Shown here piece by piece: positions 1,122 to 54,302 of a DNA stretch of 59,160 nucleotides; within the stretch, counting starts at the first letter, position 1; each line of letters starts with the position of its first letter. The stretch is taken from IMG/VR virus record IMGVR_UViG_3300046504_000185, positions 1 through 59,160 of that record; one strand, written 5' to 3'. The DNA comes from a virus. Below the pieces are notes generated by a model. The model saw only the letters and a program-made list of their open reading frames with translations, was not told the DNA's origin and did not search any database. A program made the position numbers and the translations under genes.

Positions 1122-3140
1122 ATGAGTGAAACAACTGAATACACCTTAACTTCTTATTTAGGTCCTGAATTTCAACAAAAATTAATGTGGCAATTGCTGG
1201 TGGAATCAGAATATGCCGAAAAAGCATTGCCTAATATATCCGTAGAATATTTTGATGATCCGAATCTCAAGAGATTATTTCTTATTATGTTGGAATATCT
1301 CCGGACTTATGATAAAGTTCCAAATCTTCAAAATCAGAGCATACATCAAGCAATAAATCAGTTCAAAGCACCAAACAATATAATTGAAGAAGAATCTCTC
1401 TTTGCCGTAGTAAAACGTATTGAGTTATTTAATGAGAGAATTTTGAATAAATCTTTAATGCACGATGGCGAAGTTGTTCAGAAATCAACAAATGAATTTA
1501 TTAAACAACAAGAGTATCGTAAATTAGCAGAATTCATTATCGTCAAAATTAAAAGTGGCGAAATGAAAAATAAAAAGATTATTGGTGAGATAGAAGAAAA
1601 ATTTCAAAAAATTACTCTTATAGGCAGTGATGAAGATTGTGGCAGTGATGTTATTGAGGGTCTTGAAAAAGCATTGAGAAAAGAATTCAGAGAAACAATA
1701 CCAACAGGCGTTACTGTAATTGATGTATTAACTGATGGTGGATTGGGTAAAGGTGAAATGGGTTTGATCCTTACGCCTTCTGGTGTTGGAAAGACAACCT
1801 TGTTGACAAAAATTGCCAATACTGCCCGTGAAAACAATAAAAATGTACTTCAGATTATTTTCGAAGATACCAAAGAACAGATACAGAGAAAACACGTTAC
1901 CATTTGGACAAAAATAGCATTAAGCCAACTTAATGTCGATGATAATAATGTAATAGCACTTCAAAAAGCAAATGAACATATTCAGAAATTAGGTCCAGGC
2001 AGGCTTATAATAAAGAAGTTTAGTCAGGAAGATACCACAATGCGTGATGTCAAAAACTTTATATTAAGAGAACAGAAAAAATGGGGATTTAAATTTGATA
2101 TTGTTGTACTTGATTATCTTGATTGTCTTGAATCACACAAAAAAGTCACAGACAGGACTGAAGCAGAACTTGTAATTGTTAAATCATTTGAAGCACTTGC
2201 AAGTGATCTGAACATACCATGTTGGTCAGCAATTCAAAGTAATCGTTCAGGATTTGATGCTGAACTTGTTGAAGCACAACATACTGGTGGTAATATCAAA
2301 AGAGTTCAAAAATCACATTTCTTTATGAGTGTTGCCAAAACTGCAGATCAAAAAGAAGCAAGTCTTGCAAGTATTAAGATTATCAAGGCAAGGTTTGCAC
2401 AGGATGGTCAGATATTTAAAGATTGTATATTCAATAATGATACAATGCAAATCATCATTCAAGATGATAGATATGTTGGTGATAGATACAGGGGTTTGAA
2501 AAAACAAGGTGATGATGACATAAATAGACTTGAAAATAGAACAGATAAATTAAATTTATTTCATGTTGCTGCATCAAGTGCGTTAGCCAATAGTGATGAT
2601 CAGGAAAAAGTTTCATTGATGGATGATGCAGCAAAAAAATATCTTGAAAATTTTCCTACTGAAAAGCCGAAAACTGAAAATGAAATAATAACTGTAACTG
2701 GTGATATTGGAAAATTTCCGGATACTGTAAAAGAAATTTCAATGGAAAAAGATACTGAAACGCCAAAAATTGTAAAAGAAAAAAATGAAGACATACTTGA
2801 AATTGAAAACTTACCTATTGAAAAAACTGATGGTGTAATTGATGGTGCAACTGAGGGTGTAAATGATGGAGCAAAAGAACCAATTTTAGATTGGTCTGGA
2901 GAAACTTTTACTACTACAACGAATGAAATTGAAGTAAAAATCGATGTTATTAAGCCGATTGAAACGCCAAAAATTGAAGAAAAAACTGTAGAAAAACTAA
3001 TAATTGAAGAAAAAAATAAAAATATTTTGATAGCAGAAAAAGACTTTGATAATCCTGACGATGTGCCAAAAATACATAAAAATGTATTTGAAATGTTAAC
3101 GAAAAAGGCTAAGAGTCAGAAAGTTATAGATACCAGTTAA
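1122..3140 (+). CDS. DnaB-type replicative DNA helicase (T4 gp41-like) with long C-terminal tail
   Basis: This is a RecA-fold (SF4) replicative helicase expected to unwind DNA at the phage fork as a hexamer. Residues about 1-120 resemble the helical DnaB N-terminal domain. The ATPase domain has Walker A TPSGVGKTT with Lys at about 224 and Walker B VVLDYLD with Asp at about 331, followed by a sensor-type segment (IQSNRSG) and a basic DNA-binding region. The protein is 672 residues, much longer than the usual 450-500. The last 190 or so residues (from about 480) are low in complexity, rich in Lys, Glu, Ile and Thr, and probably disordered. No primase gene is visible beside it. The start at 1122 gives the expected N-terminal domain. 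Confidence 0.9.
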   Translation: MSETTEYTLTSYLGPEFQQKLMWQLLVESEYAEKALPNISVEYFDDPNLKRLFLIMLEYLRTYDKVPNLQNQSIHQAINQFKAPNNIIEEESLFAVVKRIELFNERILNKSLMHDGEVVQKSTNEFIKQQEYRKLAEFIIVKIKSGEMKNKKIIGEIEEKFQKITLIGSDEDCGSDVIEGLEKALRKEFRETIPTGVTVIDVLTDGGLGKGEMGLILTPSGVGKTTLLTKIANTARENNKNVLQIIFEDTKEQIQRKHVTIWTKIALSQLNVDDNNVIALQKANEHIQKLGPGRLIIKKFSQEDTTMRDVKNFILREQKKWGFKFDIVVLDYLDCLESHKKVTDRTEAELVIVKSFEALASDLNIPCWSAIQSNRSGFDAELVEAQHTGGNIKRVQKSHFFMSVAKTADQKEASLASIKIIKARFAQDGQIFKDCIFNNDTMQIIIQDDRYVGDRYRGLKKQGDDDINRLENRTDKLNLFHVAASSALANSDDQEKVSLMDDAAKKYLENFPTEKPKTENEIITVTGDIGKFPDTVKEISMEKDTETPKIVKEKNEDILEIENLPIEKTDGVIDGATEGVNDGAKEPILDWSGETFTTTTNEIEVKIDVIKPIETPKIEEKTVEKLIIEEKNKNILIAEKDFDNPDDVPKIHKNVFEMLTKKAKSQKVIDTS

Positions 3141-3180
3141 AATTTTTTATAAAATATTGTAACTTTTTGTAAACTACTTC

Positions 3181-3189
3181 GTATTTATA
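3181..3189 (+). promoter_or_regulatory. Late-type motif GTATTTATA ahead of the RNA region
   Basis: Same motif as upstream of the structural genes, here 40 nt after the helicase stop and with no nearby ORF. It could drive late transcription of the RNA region. It is the only copy not followed closely by a protein gene. Confidence 0.4.
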
Positions 3190-3235
3190 TTCCCAGACGA
3201 TTGTAAAATTTTTTTTCTTTTTTTTCATAAAATAC

Positions 3236-3266
3236 TTGCACATTAAAAAAACTTGTATTTACTTTG
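3236..3266 (+). promoter_or_regulatory. Bacteroidetes-type promoter for the RNA region
   Basis: TTG at 3236-3238 is followed after 20 nt by TTACTTTG at 3259-3266, seven of eight matches to TAnnTTTG. It lies just upstream of the first structured RNA and no ORF follows, so it most likely drives the tRNA/ncRNA array. Confidence 0.6.
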
Positions 3267-3286
3267 CATCGTCCAAAAGGGACAAA

Positions 3287-3298
3287 TGTTCTTTGTAA
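3287..3298 (+). promoter_or_regulatory. boxA-like site 1
   Basis: TGTTCTTTGTAA resembles the boxA antitermination element used in rRNA operons (core GYTCTTT). It lies about 20 nt after the host-type promoter. Two further copies are at 3711 and 4480. Antitermination would fit a long untranslated transcript with several oligo-T hairpins. Confidence 0.35.
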
Positions 3299-3309
3299 GA
3301 TTTTTTAAG

Positions 3310-3372
3310 GAGAAATGAAGTAGCCGTTATTATGCATGACTTTTCTTGGACATTCCAAACGGATAATTTCTC
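3310..3372 (+). ncRNA. Structured leader RNA (hairpin)
   Basis: GAGAAAT (3310-3316) pairs with ATTTCTC (3366-3372), CCGTT (3324-3328) with AACGG (3358-3362), and an inner TTGGA/TCCAA hairpin caps it (3346-3358, sharing one base with the second helix). It lies at the 5' end of the RNA-region transcript. No known family is recognised. It could be a small RNA or a processing/antitermination leader. Confidence 0.3.
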
Positions 3373-3394
3373 ATATGATATAAAAGGAAACGGT

Positions 3395-3408
3395 GTGTTA
3401 TTACAGTA
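3395..3408 (+). repeat. Boundary repeat copy A (divergent)
   Basis: GTGTTATTACAGTA, a copy of the core GTGTTTACAGTA with a two-base insertion, preceded by GGAAACG as in copy D. It is the first of five copies in the RNA region. Confidence 0.4.
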
Positions 3409-3475
3409 ACAATTACATCAATGATAGATGGTCCGCCTTCAAAGCAGAAAGTTCCGGGGTCAAAGCCGGATTGTT
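3408..3475 (+). other. tRNA-like fold with UCA in the anticodon position (weak)
   Basis: AACAA at 3408-3412 can pair with TTGTT at 3471-3475. CATC/GATG (3416-3419 / 3427-3430) forms a D-like stem. A stem with one mismatch encloses loop CTTCAAA (3437-3443) with TCA at positions 34-36, and TCCGG/CCGGA (3453-3457 / 3466-3470) forms a T-like stem. The T loop lacks the TTC signature and the acceptor is weak. It could be a degenerate tRNA, a tRNA mimic or chance. It is bounded by a divergent boundary repeat upstream and an A/C-rich stretch downstream, like the better tRNA pieces. Confidence 0.2.
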
Positions 3476-3519
3476 TAACAAAAATAACAAACAAATTATC
3501 CTTTTAATTTATAGTTTTC

Positions 3520-3545: not shown

Positions 3546-3618
3546 TGCGGGGTGGTAGAAGAGGCATCTCGTCAGGCTCATAACCTGAAGATCGGGGGTT
3601 CGAATCCCTCTCCCGCTA
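3546..3618 (+). tRNA. tRNA-Met(CAU), initiator-type
   Basis: The acceptor pairs 3547-3552 with 3611-3616, and position 1 is an unpaired T-T (3546/3617). A 1:72 mismatch is the hallmark of bacterial initiator tRNA. The anticodon arm TCAGG-CTCATAA-CCTGA (3572-3588) carries CAT, and the T arm GGGGG-TTCGAAT-CCCTC is standard. The sequence resembles bacterial tRNA-fMet (GCGGGGTGG start, CTCGTC before the anticodon stem). The D stem is G(T)AGA/TCTC with a bulged T. No CCA is encoded, so the phage or host CCA-adding enzyme must finish the end. Elongator identity cannot be fully excluded. Confidence 0.85.
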
Positions 3619-3623
3619 CTATG

Positions 3624-3696
3624 TAGAAGAACTGTTAGTGTTTACAGTAAAATAACGCACAGTGATTTATCTAATAAGACTGACAAATTTCTTCTA
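3624..3696 (+). ncRNA. 73-nt structured RNA closed by an 8-bp terminal stem
   Basis: TAGAAGAA (3624-3631) pairs perfectly with TTCTTCTA (3689-3696), and a T5 run follows at 3700-3704, so the unit could end itself. Inside, GTTA/TAAC and CAGT/ACTG stems are possible. It contains boundary repeat copy B. The length and 7-bp acceptor-like ends look like tRNA, but there is no T arm. A small RNA with paired ends and an oligo-U tail next to a Ro60-like gene recalls Y RNAs. That is inference only. Confidence 0.35.
3626..3649 (+). repeat. Boundary repeat copy B
   Basis: A 24-nt copy starting GAAGAACTG and ending GTGTTTACAGTA (3638-3649). It shares 21 of 24 positions with copy E. ACTGT and ACAGT within it are inverted and could form a small hairpin. 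Confidence 0.6.
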
Positions 3697-3727: not shown

Positions 3728-3865
3728 GGGGAGATAGCAAAACAAAAAACAAAAAATACTATCTCAACTGCTCTCTTCAAAGAGAGAACTCGTAGTGTTT
3801 CCAGTAAAAGGTAAAGCAATTGAGTTGAAATCAATAGATTACAGGTTCGAGTCCTGTTCTCCCCA
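3728..3865 (+). tRNA. Interrupted tRNA, anticodon UGA (Ser codon UCA), with a 68-nt insertion in the D arm
   Basis: The 5' piece GGGGAGATAGC (3728-3738) gives acceptor GGGGAGA, which pairs perfectly with TCTCCCC at 3858-3864. The 3' piece carries anticodon arm ATTGA-GTTGAAA-TCAAT (3819-3835), variable AGATT, and T arm ACAGG-TTCGAGT-CCTGT (3841-3857). Between the pieces, 3739-3806 begins with an A/C-rich run, has a CTCTCT/AGAGAG hairpin and ends with boundary repeat C. Cutting at the repeat end leaves a 70-nt tRNA with a 2-bp D stem. Retaining bases from 3799 would give a GCTT/AAGC D stem. No CCA is encoded. The short variable loop is unusual for tRNA-Ser, so amino-acid identity is uncertain. 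Confidence 0.65.
3783..3806 (+). repeat. Boundary repeat copy C (3' end of the tRNA insertion)
   Basis: Ends with GTGTTTCCAGTA at 3795-3806 and shares 19 of 24 positions with copy B. It lies exactly where the insertion in the tRNA ends. Confidence 0.6.
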
Positions 3866-3921
3866 CAAGTAATTCCCGGTTGTCCCTGTGGCAACACAAA
3901 CTTCCGGGTAACGATACAATG

Positions 3922-3945
3922 GGAAAACGAAAAGTGTTTACAGTA
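3922..3945 (+). repeat. Boundary repeat copy D (before the tRNA 3' half)
   Basis: Ends with GTGTTTACAGTA at 3934-3945, identical in core to copies B and E. The next base, 3946, begins the variable region of the permuted tRNA. Upstream, 3873-3908 folds as a CCCGG/CCGGG hairpin enclosing GTTG/CAAC. Confidence 0.6.
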
Positions 3946-4039
3946 ATATCGGAGGTTCGAATCCTTCCTTCCCCACCAAAATAATAAAATAAGTTTGGGG
4001 AAGTAGACAAGTGGCAAAGTCAATAGTCGGTTAAACTAT
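3946..4039 (+). tRNA. Circularly permuted tRNA gene, probable tRNA-Asn(GUU)
   Basis: The 3' half comes first: variable ATATC, T arm GGAGG-TTCGAAT-CCTTC (3951-3967), acceptor CTTCCCC (3968-3974), discriminator A and encoded CCA (3976-3978). After 18 nt the 5' half follows: GGGGAAG (3997-4003), perfectly complementary to CTTCCCC, then TA, D arm GAC-AAGTGGCAAA-GTC, and anticodon arm ATAGT-CGGTTAA-ACTAT (4023-4039). Joining 4039 to 3946 gives exactly 76 nt with a 5-nt variable loop. The 3' half is preceded by boundary repeat D and the 5' half is followed by the same A/C-rich run that opens the insertion in the neighbouring tRNA. GTT reads Asn, but position 33 is G instead of the usual U. No other GGGGAAG start exists upstream to offer a normal order. 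Confidence 0.65.
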
Positions 4040-4302
4040 GAAAACAAAAACAACAAATACTTTTAAAATGTTCCCAATGTTTTAAAAGTGGTACAAGGGT
4101 GAATATAAATTATTACAAATGATATAAGTGTAACCCCAATCCCACTTAATCCTAACATTTGAAGCATGTTGCAACGTGCGTGGTTAAGAATGGTTTTTAT
4201 CGGCAGAAGTGCTGAGTTTTTTCAAAAATAAAGAAATAATTACTGTGTCTAAGTTAAGCCAGATCGAAAGATAGGACTTTTTTTCGGCAGTAGTTTAAAA
4301 AG
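4040..4302 (+). other. Non-coding structured tract after the permuted tRNA
   Basis: No gene is seen here. It opens with an A/C-rich run (4040-4058) ending AAATACT (4056-4062), then a perfect 10-bp hairpin ACTTTTAAAA/TTTTAAAAGT (4059-4089). AAGTGG (about 4086) can instead pair with CCACTT (about 4142), nested with GGGT/ACCC, so two folds compete. A GCATGTT/AACGTGC hairpin (about 4165-4180) and two oligo-T hairpins follow. It may hold one or more small RNAs. Confidence 0.4.
4201..4222 (+). terminator. Hairpin with oligo-T in the RNA region
   Basis: CGGCA-GAAG-TGCTG (4201-4214) with one G-U pair, then GAG and six T. A second, weaker ATC-GAAA-GAT hairpin followed by seven T lies at 4263-4284. 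Confidence 0.5.
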
Positions 4303-4326
4303 GAAGAACTGGGTGTGTTTACAGTA
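4303..4326 (+). repeat. Boundary repeat copy E
   Basis: Starts GAAGAACTG and ends GTGTTTACAGTA (4315-4326). The sequence after it has a strong TCCCGTC/GGCGGGA hairpin (about 4341-4363) but no recognisable tRNA 3' half. Confidence 0.6.
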
Positions 4327-4387
4327 GATTGAAACATGGAATCCCGTCCATTGAGAGGCGGGACAAACTTACAGGCAATACAACCGA

Positions 4388-4419
4388 ACTTCTTCTCTAT
4401 ATTTGAGAGAAGTATTTTT
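4388..4419 (+). terminator. Hairpin terminator
   Basis: ACTTC(T)TCTC pairs with GAGAGAAGT with one bulge (4388-4413), followed by ATTTTT. Confidence 0.5.
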
Positions 4420-4431
4420 CCTACAAGAAAT

Positions 4432-4477
4432 GGGCGGGGATATGGTGTGAAAACACCATGCTTTGCCCTTTTTTTTT
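4432..4477 (+). terminator. Strong rho-independent terminator ending the RNA region
   Basis: ATGGTGT-GAAA-ACACCAT (4442-4459) is enclosed by GGGC/GCCC (4432-4435 / 4465-4468) and followed directly by nine T. It insulates the RNA array from the antirepressor gene. Confidence 0.85.
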
Positions 4478-51866: not shown

Positions 51867-54302
51867 ATGGACGGAAAAATCAGAATTTTATTCTATAACT
51901 TAGATGGCGCAGGCGTAAACTACTTCAGAACACAAACACCAGCAATGGAACTTGATAGAAATCATGGTAATGAGTTTTACACAGAAATAAATCCACAGAT
52001 AGACTTTAATGATCCCAAAATTGTTGATTATCTTAAAACATTTCACATCATACATTATCACCGTCAATTTCTTGGTGATACAAAACAAATGGTTCAATTA
52101 GCAAATGAACTGCATAAATCCGGCACAATATTAATGGTTGATATTGATGACTATTGGAATCTACATAAAAAACATCCATTTTATAATCTTGCACAAGAAA
52201 AGAAATTACATATACCAATCTTGGAAAACTTGAAAATTGCTGATTATGTTACTACAACTACAGACATATTTGCCGATGAAATTCGTAAGGTAACATTGAA
52301 AGATAACGTAGGTGTATTCTATAACTCAATCAATCCCCAATGGATGAAACAATTTCAAAATAATTGGAAACCAGACCCTGATGGGTTAGTAAGAATAACA
52401 TATATGGCAGGTTCTTGTTATGATGACCAAACTGAAATATTGACAGAAAATGGGTTTAAATTATTTAAAGATTTGAATATGGATGAAAAGGTAGCAACTC
52501 TAAATTCAAGTGGTGAATTAGAGTATCAATTACCTACAGATTATACAAACGAAGAATATTTTGGTGATATGTTTTATGGTAAAAATAAAAACATAGATTT
52601 TGCTGTAACTCCTAACCATAATATGTTTGTTCATAAATCAAAATCACAAAATAGAAGAAAACCATTTAATTTTAATTTAAATAAAATGGAAAATTTAAAT
52701 GGTTATGATTTAACATTTAAGAAAAATTGTAAATGGAATGGCAAAGAAAAGGATTTTTTTACATTAGAAAAATGTAATTCTGTATTTAAAGAATTTAATG
52801 ATATTAATTTTGAAATGGATGATTGGTTGAAATTCTTTGGATATTGGATTGGTGATGGGTGGGCAACGTGTGATGGTAGTAATCAAGTTGGCATTTGTGG
52901 TGTTAAAGAATCATCAATAATAACAATGAAAGAAATTGAAACCATATTGATTAAATATGGATTTAATCCTACTTGGACTAAAGATGGTATTCAATTAAGA
53001 ATATTTAATCAGCAATTATTTAAATATTTAAATCAATTTGGTGGTGCAAATGATAAATTTATTCCAAATGAAATTAAGAATTTATCAAGTAGGCAATTAC
53101 AAATTTTTATTGATTATTATTTAAAAGCAGATGGCACGATTAGAAAAAATGGAAGATTGTCTTGTGATACAATTTCAAAAAATTTAGTTAATGATTTTAG
53201 TGAAATTGCATTAAAATTAGGTACTTGTGTTACGGTTAAAAATAGGGGTATTAGAACATCAATAATGAAAGATGGAAGAATTATTACAGGCAAACATGAT
53301 GGTTATTGTTTAAATTTTTATGGAAAGGGTGTAAAAAGTCAATTAACACCAACAGTTAACGTGAAAGATATTGTAAAAAAAGAATATCGAGGCAATATAT
53401 ATTGCGTAACAGTTCCTAATCATATATTATATATCAGAAGAAACGGTTTTTCGTATTGGTGTGGTAATTCTCACATGGGTGACATGGAACAACTTGATGG
53501 CGTAATGAATGTATTATCAAATGATTTTAGTATAAAAGATAAATTCAAAGTAATCATTGCAGGTTGGGATACTGAGGGTAATACTACTGATATTACATTT
53601 AATCAGGAATTTGGTGAAGAACTTCAGAAGATTGGACTATGGACCATTAATACGGTTAAAATTATTAATAAAACCCGTGGTAATGTAGATATGATACCTA
53701 AATTACCTGAAGCATTGAAAGAGAAATACAGGGGTAAGGTATTCAGCACAAATCAAAGAGATATTAAATCCGAAGAAAGTGTATATTTGATCTATGAAAA
53801 TATGTTAACGGATAATCATCGCATGATTATAAATCCCGATTATATTCAATGGTTAAAAAATTATGAAAGGAATGTCAGTTATCCGGATGAAGGCAACTTT
53901 GCCCGTAGATGGACGCAAAAAGCAAATACATATGCACAAGTATTAGATGAAACTGACATTGTTATTGCACCACTTGCCGATAATCCATTCAATAGAATGA
54001 AGTCAAATTTGAAACAAGTTGAATGTTGGTCAAGAAAACTTCCGATTGTTTGCAATGATATGCCGCCATATAATGTTCATGGCAGACATTTAGAGAATTG
54101 TATATTAATTCCCAATGAAAAAAATGCCAGAAAGTATTGGCAGAAGTATTTAAAGAGACTGATATTAGATGCTGACCTTCGTAAACAACTTGGTGAACAA
54201 CTATATGAGGACTTTAAAGACGAATATAACTTAACGACTGTAACAAAGAAACGTGCGGACTTTTACAGGGCAGCAGTTATGAAAACATTAGCAGTAGTTT
54301 AA
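51867..54302 (+). CDS. Glycosyltransferase (GT-B type) interrupted by an intein
   Basis: The exteins (residues 1-183 and 535-811) join into a roughly 460-residue glycosyltransferase of the GT4 sort: an N-terminal Rossmann domain (LFYNLDGAGVNYFRTQTPA, IHYHRQFLGDT, MVDIDDYW), the intein at the ITYMAGS/SHMGDMEQLD junction, and a C-terminal domain with VIIAGWDTEG and IVIAPLADNPFNRMKSNLKQVE, the latter the usual donor-binding region. The donor and acceptor sugars are unknown. With the GT9-like gene at 23579 it is the second glycosyltransferase in the window. It starts after a terminator and a late-type motif. Confidence 0.85.
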   Translation: MDGKIRILFYNLDGAGVNYFRTQTPAMELDRNHGNEFYTEINPQIDFNDPKIVDYLKTFHIIHYHRQFLGDTKQMVQLANELHKSGTILMVDIDDYWNLHKKHPFYNLAQEKKLHIPILENLKIADYVTTTTDIFADEIRKVTLKDNVGVFYNSINPQWMKQFQNNWKPDPDGLVRITYMAGSCYDDQTEILTENGFKLFKDLNMDEKVATLNSSGELEYQLPTDYTNEEYFGDMFYGKNKNIDFAVTPNHNMFVHKSKSQNRRKPFNFNLNKMENLNGYDLTFKKNCKWNGKEKDFFTLEKCNSVFKEFNDINFEMDDWLKFFGYWIGDGWATCDGSNQVGICGVKESSIITMKEIETILIKYGFNPTWTKDGIQLRIFNQQLFKYLNQFGGANDKFIPNEIKNLSSRQLQIFIDYYLKADGTIRKNGRLSCDTISKNLVNDFSEIALKLGTCVTVKNRGIRTSIMKDGRIITGKHDGYCLNFYGKGVKSQLTPTVNVKDIVKKEYRGNIYCVTVPNHILYIRRNGFSYWCGNSHMGDMEQLDGVMNVLSNDFSIKDKFKVIIAGWDTEGNTTDITFNQEFGEELQKIGLWTINTVKIINKTRGNVDMIPKLPEALKEKYRGKVFSTNQRDIKSEESVYLIYENMLTDNHRMIINPDYIQWLKNYERNVSYPDEGNFARRWTQKANTYAQVLDETDIVIAPLADNPFNRMKSNLKQVECWSRKLPIVCNDMPPYNVHGRHLENCILIPNEKNARKYWQKYLKRLILDADLRKQLGEQLYEDFKDEYNLTTVTKKRADFYRAAVMKTLAVV
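52416..53468 (+). mobile_element. Intein with LAGLIDADG homing endonuclease
   Basis: The intein occupies residues 184-534 (351 aa) of the 51867 product. It begins CYDDQTEIL (Cys1). Block B is TPNHNMFV, the two dodecapeptide motifs are FFGYWIGDGW and FIDYYLKADGT, block F is RGNIYCVTVPNHILYI, and block G is YWCGN followed by Ser+1 of the C-extein. The catalytic Cys1, terminal Asn and Ser+1 are present. The usual penultimate His is Gly. Both dodecapeptides keep an acidic residue, so the endonuclease could be active. The intein codons are more A/T-rich than the exteins. Confidence 0.9.

Follow-up and report, generated by a model that had tools for sequence, protein, structure and literature searches.

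The question raised by this locus is whether a phage can carry a transfer RNA (tRNA) gene with its two halves in reverse order. The locus lies in the IMG/VR virus record IMGVR_UViG_3300046504_000185, of which positions 1 to 59,160 were analysed (hereafter the window), within a cluster of tRNA and tRNA-like elements. We call these elements E0 to E4; they and an ordinary tRNA-Met all lie on the + strand. In E3 (3921-4075) the 3' half of a tRNA is found upstream of its own 5' half. The 3' half (3944-3978) consists of TA, the variable region (3946-3950), the T arm (3951-3967), the acceptor strand CTTCCCC (3968-3974), and A73 with an encoded CCA (ACCA, 3975-3978). It is followed by an intervening sequence of 18 nt after the CCA (3979-3996) and then by the 5' half (3997-4039), with the acceptor strand GGGGAAG (3997-4003), TA (4004-4005), the D arm (4006-4021), A26 (4022) and the anticodon arm (4023-4039; loop CGGTTAA, anticodon GTT, G33). 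The sequence agrees in this order and in these coordinates with a preliminary description, which had also reported the perfect pairing of the two acceptor strands. GGGGAAG at 3997 is the sole 7/7 partner of CTTCCCC in 59,160 bases (G-T pairs allowed). Joining position 4039, where the 5' half ends in GGTTAAACTAT, to 3946 gives 43 + 33 = 76 nt, so the length proposed at that time holds, but the exact splice points can be placed only to within about 2 nt: the 3' half may start with ATATCGGAGG from 3946 or with TAATATCGGAGG from 3944, because the neighbouring tRNA (E2, see below) suggests that the 3' exon begins at T3944.

Standard searches miss the gene in its unjoined state. ARAGORN run on the window as it stands finds only tRNA-Met (3546-3619), and calls the joined form of E3 as tRNA(gtt). 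The Rfam search (cmscan), a check already proposed for this locus, places tRNA matches in the cluster on tRNA-Met, 3407-3477 and 3803-3857; on the permuted 3' half it gives only sub-threshold matches to transfer-messenger RNA (tmRNA) families (3951-4005; 24.2 bits versus a cut-off of 47).

The E3 pattern (GGGAAAACNNNNNGTGTTTNCAGTA) is present in 58 IMG/VR viral contigs, the longest of 349 kb, and has no match in 84,980 bacterial and archaeal species genomes. These 58 independent contigs rule out an assembly artefact. 41 distinct complete elements were parsed for the statistics given here, and all of them have the same half order. Their acceptor halves are paired in 285 out of 287 cells, with 21 different acceptor pairs and double-sided changes at all seven (7/7) acceptor pairs; when 3' halves are swapped between phages, 67% of the cells are paired, and none of 1000 swaps equals the observed value (the swaps take no account of relatedness). 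The other stems are paired almost without exception: 205 out of 205 cells for the 5-bp anticodon stem (conserved in 41/41), 204 out of 205 for the T stem and 123 out of 123 for the scored D-stem pairs. In 39 copies the T loop has the sequence TTCGAAT or TTCGAGT, and CCA follows the discriminator in 27 copies. Joined at the variable region, 39 of the 41 are called as tRNAs by ARAGORN, and none when left unjoined (the two misses had been wrongly split by the script, and the corrected split was used for the pairing counts). Such calls are a weak test of the specificity of the join, as 132 out of 205 joins of mismatched halves were called as well, and we therefore rely on covariation as the stronger evidence. 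With this covariation over 41 distinct homologues, the assignment of E3 as a circularly permuted tRNA (or tRNA-like) gene in a phage, first made in the preliminary description, is strongly supported.

What encloses the reversed halves? It had been noticed that the sequences on both sides of E3 also bound an insertion in the neighbouring tRNA. These flanking repeats turned out to be two strands that together form a single RNA module, here called X, which is rigid and covaries. Its upper stem leads into an asymmetric internal loop of 8 x 10 nt with AAC on one side, below which come a 6-bp helix (helix A) and NCAG followed by TA. Strand 2 has, in order, a 5-nt G-rich strand, AAC, usually 5 nt, the 6-nt helix strand, NCAG and TA; strand 1 has the 6-nt partner, 10 nt and a C-rich strand, and in the 10-nt segment T is invariant at position 9, and three of four classes have A at position 7. 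For E3, strand 2 (3921-3943) reads GGGAA (3921-3925), AAC (3926-3928), GAAAA (3929-3933), the helix A strand GTGTTT (3934-3939) and ACAG (3940-3943), and strand 1 (4040-4075) has an A-rich lead (4040-4054), the helix A partner AAATAC (4055-4060), the 10-nt internal segment (4061-4070) and TTCCC (4071-4075). X in E3 is open at the upper stem, and the order is strand 2, 3' half, linker, 5' half, strand 1, which is a natural permuted intron-exon layout. In the laboratory, permuted intron-exon layouts are a means of making RNA circles. The acceptor stem, the T arm and helix A all form in the minimum-energy fold of 3921-4074 (z -2.0), which pairs the 4040-4075 strand with 3921-3939.

Helix A covaries across loci, with at least six forms: GTGTTT/AAATAC, GTTATT/AATAAC, GTTTTT/AAAAAC, GTATTT/AAATAC, ATATTT/AAATAT and GTTGTT/AACAAC. 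The upper stems are specific to each element (GGGAA/TTCCC in E3, AAGGA/TCCTT in E0, AGAAG/CTTCT in E1 and GAGAG/CTCTC in E2), a specificity to be expected if, within one transcript, a strand has to pair with its own partner. A scan of the window by these rules returns three elements of the cluster and two chance matches on the + strand; shuffled sequences return 0-3. In nearly all records searched, a further motif, M (GTGTTTACAGTA), occurs nowhere but in the tRNA cluster, where it is always on the same strand, and this confinement rules it out as a genome-wide promoter or regulatory repeat.

The closed form of X is found in E2 (3728-3865; anticodon TGA), a tRNA interrupted in its D arm. The 5' exon (3728-3738, GGGGAGATAGC) is followed by an insert (3739-3804) in which X is a closed hairpin (A-rich lead, AAATAC, the guide TATCTC, CTCTC-loop-GAGAG, AAC, GTGTTT and CCAG; a CIS match of the X scan, with the G-strand from 3782), and the 3' exon starts from TA at 3805 with TAAAAGGTAAAGC. 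There are 31 distinct homologues of E2, every one with an acceptor stem of 7/7 pairs; ARAGORN finds one of them with the insert and all 31 without it. A14, G18 G19 and A21 of the D arm are retained in most copies if the 3' exon is taken from the TA that follows NCAG; if it is taken to start after this TA instead, some D loops become too short. E2 is laid out like an intron. The guide can pair with GAGATAG of the 5' exon, and the two covary in L064, L062 and L085 (1/500 in the swap test of guide and 5' exon). The exon-guide pairing of E3 exceeds 500 swaps, an excess that the relatedness of the sequences could explain. E0 gives no signal for such a helix, and a general 5' exon-guide helix, which holds in E2, was rejected on this ground.

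Three other elements of the cluster carry X or an X-like structure around different payloads. E0 (3384-3503), found by the general X scan, has an open, permuted-form X around an unpermuted tRNA-like payload: AAGGA (3384-3388), AAC (3389-3391), GTTATT (3397-3402) and ACAG (3403-3406) on strand 2, the payload (3407-3482; Rfam tRNA, 37.3 bits at 3407-3477), and then AATAAC (3483-3488) and TCCTT (3499-3503). The E0 pattern occurs in 35 viral contigs. By hand folding, the tRNA-like RNA of the window (3407-3477) has anticodon UCA (a UGA reader), and position 1 of its acceptor stem, the site of the conserved TA of X, is mismatched; at this fixed place the anticodon differs by phage (tca, gtc, ttc, caa, tat, gct, ttt and others). 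E1 (3625-3695; AGAAG-AAC, GTGTTTACAG followed by TA, and CTTCT) is X-like around a short hairpin that is not a tRNA. Its helix A is imperfect in the window, and homologues in L005, L047, L056 and L065 have a perfect, covarying helix A (GTTTTT/AAAAAC, GTGTTT/AAACAC). E4 (4302-4396; GGAAG-AAC, GTGTTTACAG followed by TA, then AATAC and CTTCT) is X-like around a small hairpin; the X scan also accepts its homologues in L054 and L060. A tRNA in normal order occupies the X that stands in the place of E3 in two outgroup loci, L036 and L117. The D arm of this tRNA in L036 aligns with the E3 D arm of L026 with a score of 18 of 20, versus at most 4 with E0 tRNAs, in a comparison that rests on 20 nt. In L035, X encloses a decayed tRNA.

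We think it rather probable that E3 is a permuted tRNA(-like) gene kept across a phage clade, in one non-coding operon with the elements that share X, and that X is cut and sealed. From the layouts above we infer that X would be recognised and cut on both strands and the ends of its payload sealed. With X as a closed hairpin (E2), an intron would be removed from the D arm, leaving a linear tRNA; with X open at the top (E3, E0, E1 and E4), the same reaction would circularise the payload. In E3 the end of the anticodon stem (4039) would be joined to the variable region (3944-3946), and the circular pre-tRNA would be opened at the acceptor loop, a step already proposed for the permuted tRNAs of algae (PMC3978253), with RNase P and 3' trimming acting at the linker to leave a tRNA of 76 nt that carries the encoded CCA. 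The agent may be the RNA itself, or an endonuclease together with an RNA ligase of the phage T4 type. The permuted tRNA may derive from a normal-order tRNA in the same X: as both orders would give the same circle if X circularises, permutation would be neutral and could arise and persist. The wider proposal, to which we give an even chance, is that X is a new compact class of RNA splicing or circularising element, neither group I, group II nor bulge-helix-bulge (BHB), which would serve both as a tRNA intron and, when permuted, as a maker of circular tRNAs and small RNAs, the permuted tRNA having come from the normal-order one.

Several observations weigh against this reading of E3 and X. X has no known catalytic core: neither the cluster nor 15 phage records contain a group I match (RF00028), so a self-splicing group I intron was rejected; X has no Rfam match, eight related clusters yielding only tRNAs; Rfam reports no group II family in the clusters, to which the group II search was limited; and by inspection X has no BHB match, with no 4-bp helix between 3-nt bulges beside the junction. 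The 5' exon-guide pairing of the E2 type is not general. The stretch between the acceptor strands of E3 is 5-23 nt long, and just 5 nt in six copies; 14 out of 41 copies have no CCA at the expected place, and the variable region after TA varies in length from 2 to 7. Ligases similar to T4 Rnl1 or Rnl2 are encoded in all seven X-bearing records of at least 155 kb (G001, G002, G003, G004, G007, G008 and G009), but also in relatives not seen to carry E3 (the L024 and L041 records), and RNA ligases are common in large phages, so their support for joining is weak, only permissive. A search for RtcB gave one clear match, in a relative without the M motif. Finally, 12 different anticodons occur among the 41 copies of E3, and U33 is absent in 17 copies and present in 24, which makes the G33 of the window, flagged as a caveat from the start, a real one.

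The main rival is a two-piece tRNA that stays unjoined, in which X would be a long open variable arm holding the ends, the linker would be cut from the acceptor loop, and the two paired RNAs would act as one. Permuted ssrA genes, with their two-piece tmRNA, are an established bacterial precedent for it, and the best structured-RNA match of E3 is tmRNA_permuted, though below threshold; the encoded CCA in 27/41 and a minimum-energy fold that has X, acceptor and T arm without any joining fit it too. It leaves unexplained, however, both the closed-hairpin X inside the D arm of E2 and the presence of X around short non-tRNA payloads, and linkers of 5 nt give no room for a CCA end; we regard it as unlikely. 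That X encloses different payloads, including the decayed tRNA of L035, could also mean that X only helps processing or stability, like the stems around rRNAs, the permutation being a functionless relic. This is very improbable, as both halves are under purifying selection in 41 phages and a relic would lose the acceptor pairing seen in 285/287 cells. The insertion in E2 has the same boundaries as E3, as it might if the halves came from two different ordinary or intron-bearing tRNA genes that had lost their partners, and the preliminary description had asked whether related phages show two such ordinary tRNAs. In these relatives the halves covary: the partner-swap test rules out remnants of two tRNAs and, with the double changes, refutes an origin from two unrelated tRNAs; CTTCCCC has no other 7/7 partner in the window, and the order is identical in 41 homologues. 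As judged from these comparisons, this origin has practically no chance of being correct.

A decoding role for E3 is doubtful: with its varied anticodons and 17/41 copies that have no U33, E3 does not show the constant U33 and conserved anticodon expected of a decoding tRNA. U33 is present in 15 out of 18 E0 and 25 out of 31 E2 readable tRNAs, and in all tRNA-Met. E2 has mostly anticodon UGA, without a long serine-type variable arm. It is possible, at a low probability, that E0, E2 and E3 are structural tRNA mimics that do not decode, and that as structured or circular RNAs they absorb or resist tRNA-targeting defences or tRNA-binding proteins. The anticodon loop, not being used in decoding, would then be free to change, as the hypervariable anticodons and U33 loss of E3 with perfect stems suggest, and E2 would not need the long variable arm that Ser tRNAs require; according to a published proposal, phage tRNAs evade tRNA-targeting defences through mutations of the anticodon loop (PMC10264068). 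A decoy does not account as readily for an acceptor stem that is always 7 bp and a CCA correctly placed in 27/41, while the tRNA-Met of the window encodes none. It is compatible with joining driven by X and does not exclude it.

Permuted tRNA genes are known from unicellular algae and the archaeon Thermofilum pendens (the preliminary description named some algae and archaea), with intervening sequences of 1 nt to tens of nt; the archaeal ones encode CCA, and a circular intermediate opening at the acceptor loop has been proposed (PMC3978253, PMC3218864). Their junctions are linked to BHB splicing, in which the tRNA-splicing endonuclease processes the motif. E3 shares with them the 3' half upstream of the 5' half and the short intervening sequence (5-23 nt). 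Unlike them, it has its junction in the variable region beside X and not in a BHB or BHB-like motif, is found in phages, is one permuted gene conserved in dozens of them, and has a variable anticodon and often no U33. By order and structure E3 is a permuted tRNA, and X is possibly a new class of element. Like the archaeal BHB system, which serves tRNA introns, permuted tRNAs and the processing stems of rRNA, X is one motif found in cis introns, in permuted tRNAs and as stems around other RNAs. The two differ in structure: the helix of X is 6 bp long, its internal loop measures 8 x 10 nt, its A-rich lead is unpaired and its splice points are at the helix base, whereas those of BHB lie in 3-nt bulges around a 4-bp helix; nor do the exons at X pair with each other next to the junction. 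Group II introns that are permuted in nature, with splice sites reversed inside the element, make small RNA circles (PMC8637638). X has the same reverse order of splice sites and may make a small circle as well, but it is about 50 nt long, has no group II domains or Rfam match, and has a tRNA as payload. Permuted two-piece tmRNA resembles E3 in its permuted gene, its acceptor stem with a removable linker and the weak Rfam similarity; E3, however, has D and anticodon arms and no mRNA-like domain, and the sub-cut-off score (24.2 bits versus 47) with the anticodon stem conserved in 41/41 does not fit a permuted tmRNA. In the open-access literature (PMC) we found no report of a permuted tRNA for a phage or bacterium. 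The earlier statement that none was known to be described in a Bacteroidetes phage stands in this wider form, a Bacteroidetes host being plausible here.

Uncultured and for the most part large, the phages that carry E3 form a clade. In the window a DnaB-type helicase gene lies just upstream of the cluster and an antirepressor gene just downstream. Among the named phages of INPHARED there is no close helicase (the best has about 27% identity) and no similar cluster, homology being limited to short tRNA stretches. Because boxA-like GTTCTTT repeats (3288, 3712 and 4481), a promoter-like stretch upstream (TTGCA...TTTGCATCG, 3236-3271) and a strong hairpin with a T run downstream (4432-4476) are found here, the cluster is suggested to be one non-coding transcript. 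The tRNA-Met(CAT) of the window (3546-3619; ARAGORN; Rfam, 45.5 bits) is ordinary and has no encoded CCA; in L060, L013 and L039 it has a long, class II-like variable arm. A conserved non-coding RNA (about 4080-4240, marked by CCTAACATTTGA at 4151 and GGTTAAGAATGGTTTTT at 4182) without an Rfam match lies between E3 and E4 in most related loci, and also directly 3' of tRNA-Met in L013, L017 and L022, where no X was found. In L113 an open reading frame (2856-3467; similar in L115) between the interrupted and the permuted tRNA has weak GIY-YIG (SegE) and NUMOD3 matches, both below the Pfam cut-offs, which suggests homing-endonuclease traffic at this site. An 811-aa open reading frame elsewhere in the window (51867-54302) has a LAGLIDADG-like domain (Pfam PF14528) and is possibly an intein or homing endonuclease.

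Permuted tRNAs in dozens of phages, with a module that is not BHB, imply a route of tRNA joining outside the archaeal-eukaryotic system. The normal-order tRNAs of L036 and L117 and the permuted ones of the other phages, held in the same kind of clamp, are a natural pair for testing how permutation originates. If X is self-acting or driven by a ligase, it would be a very small natural RNA-circularising element.
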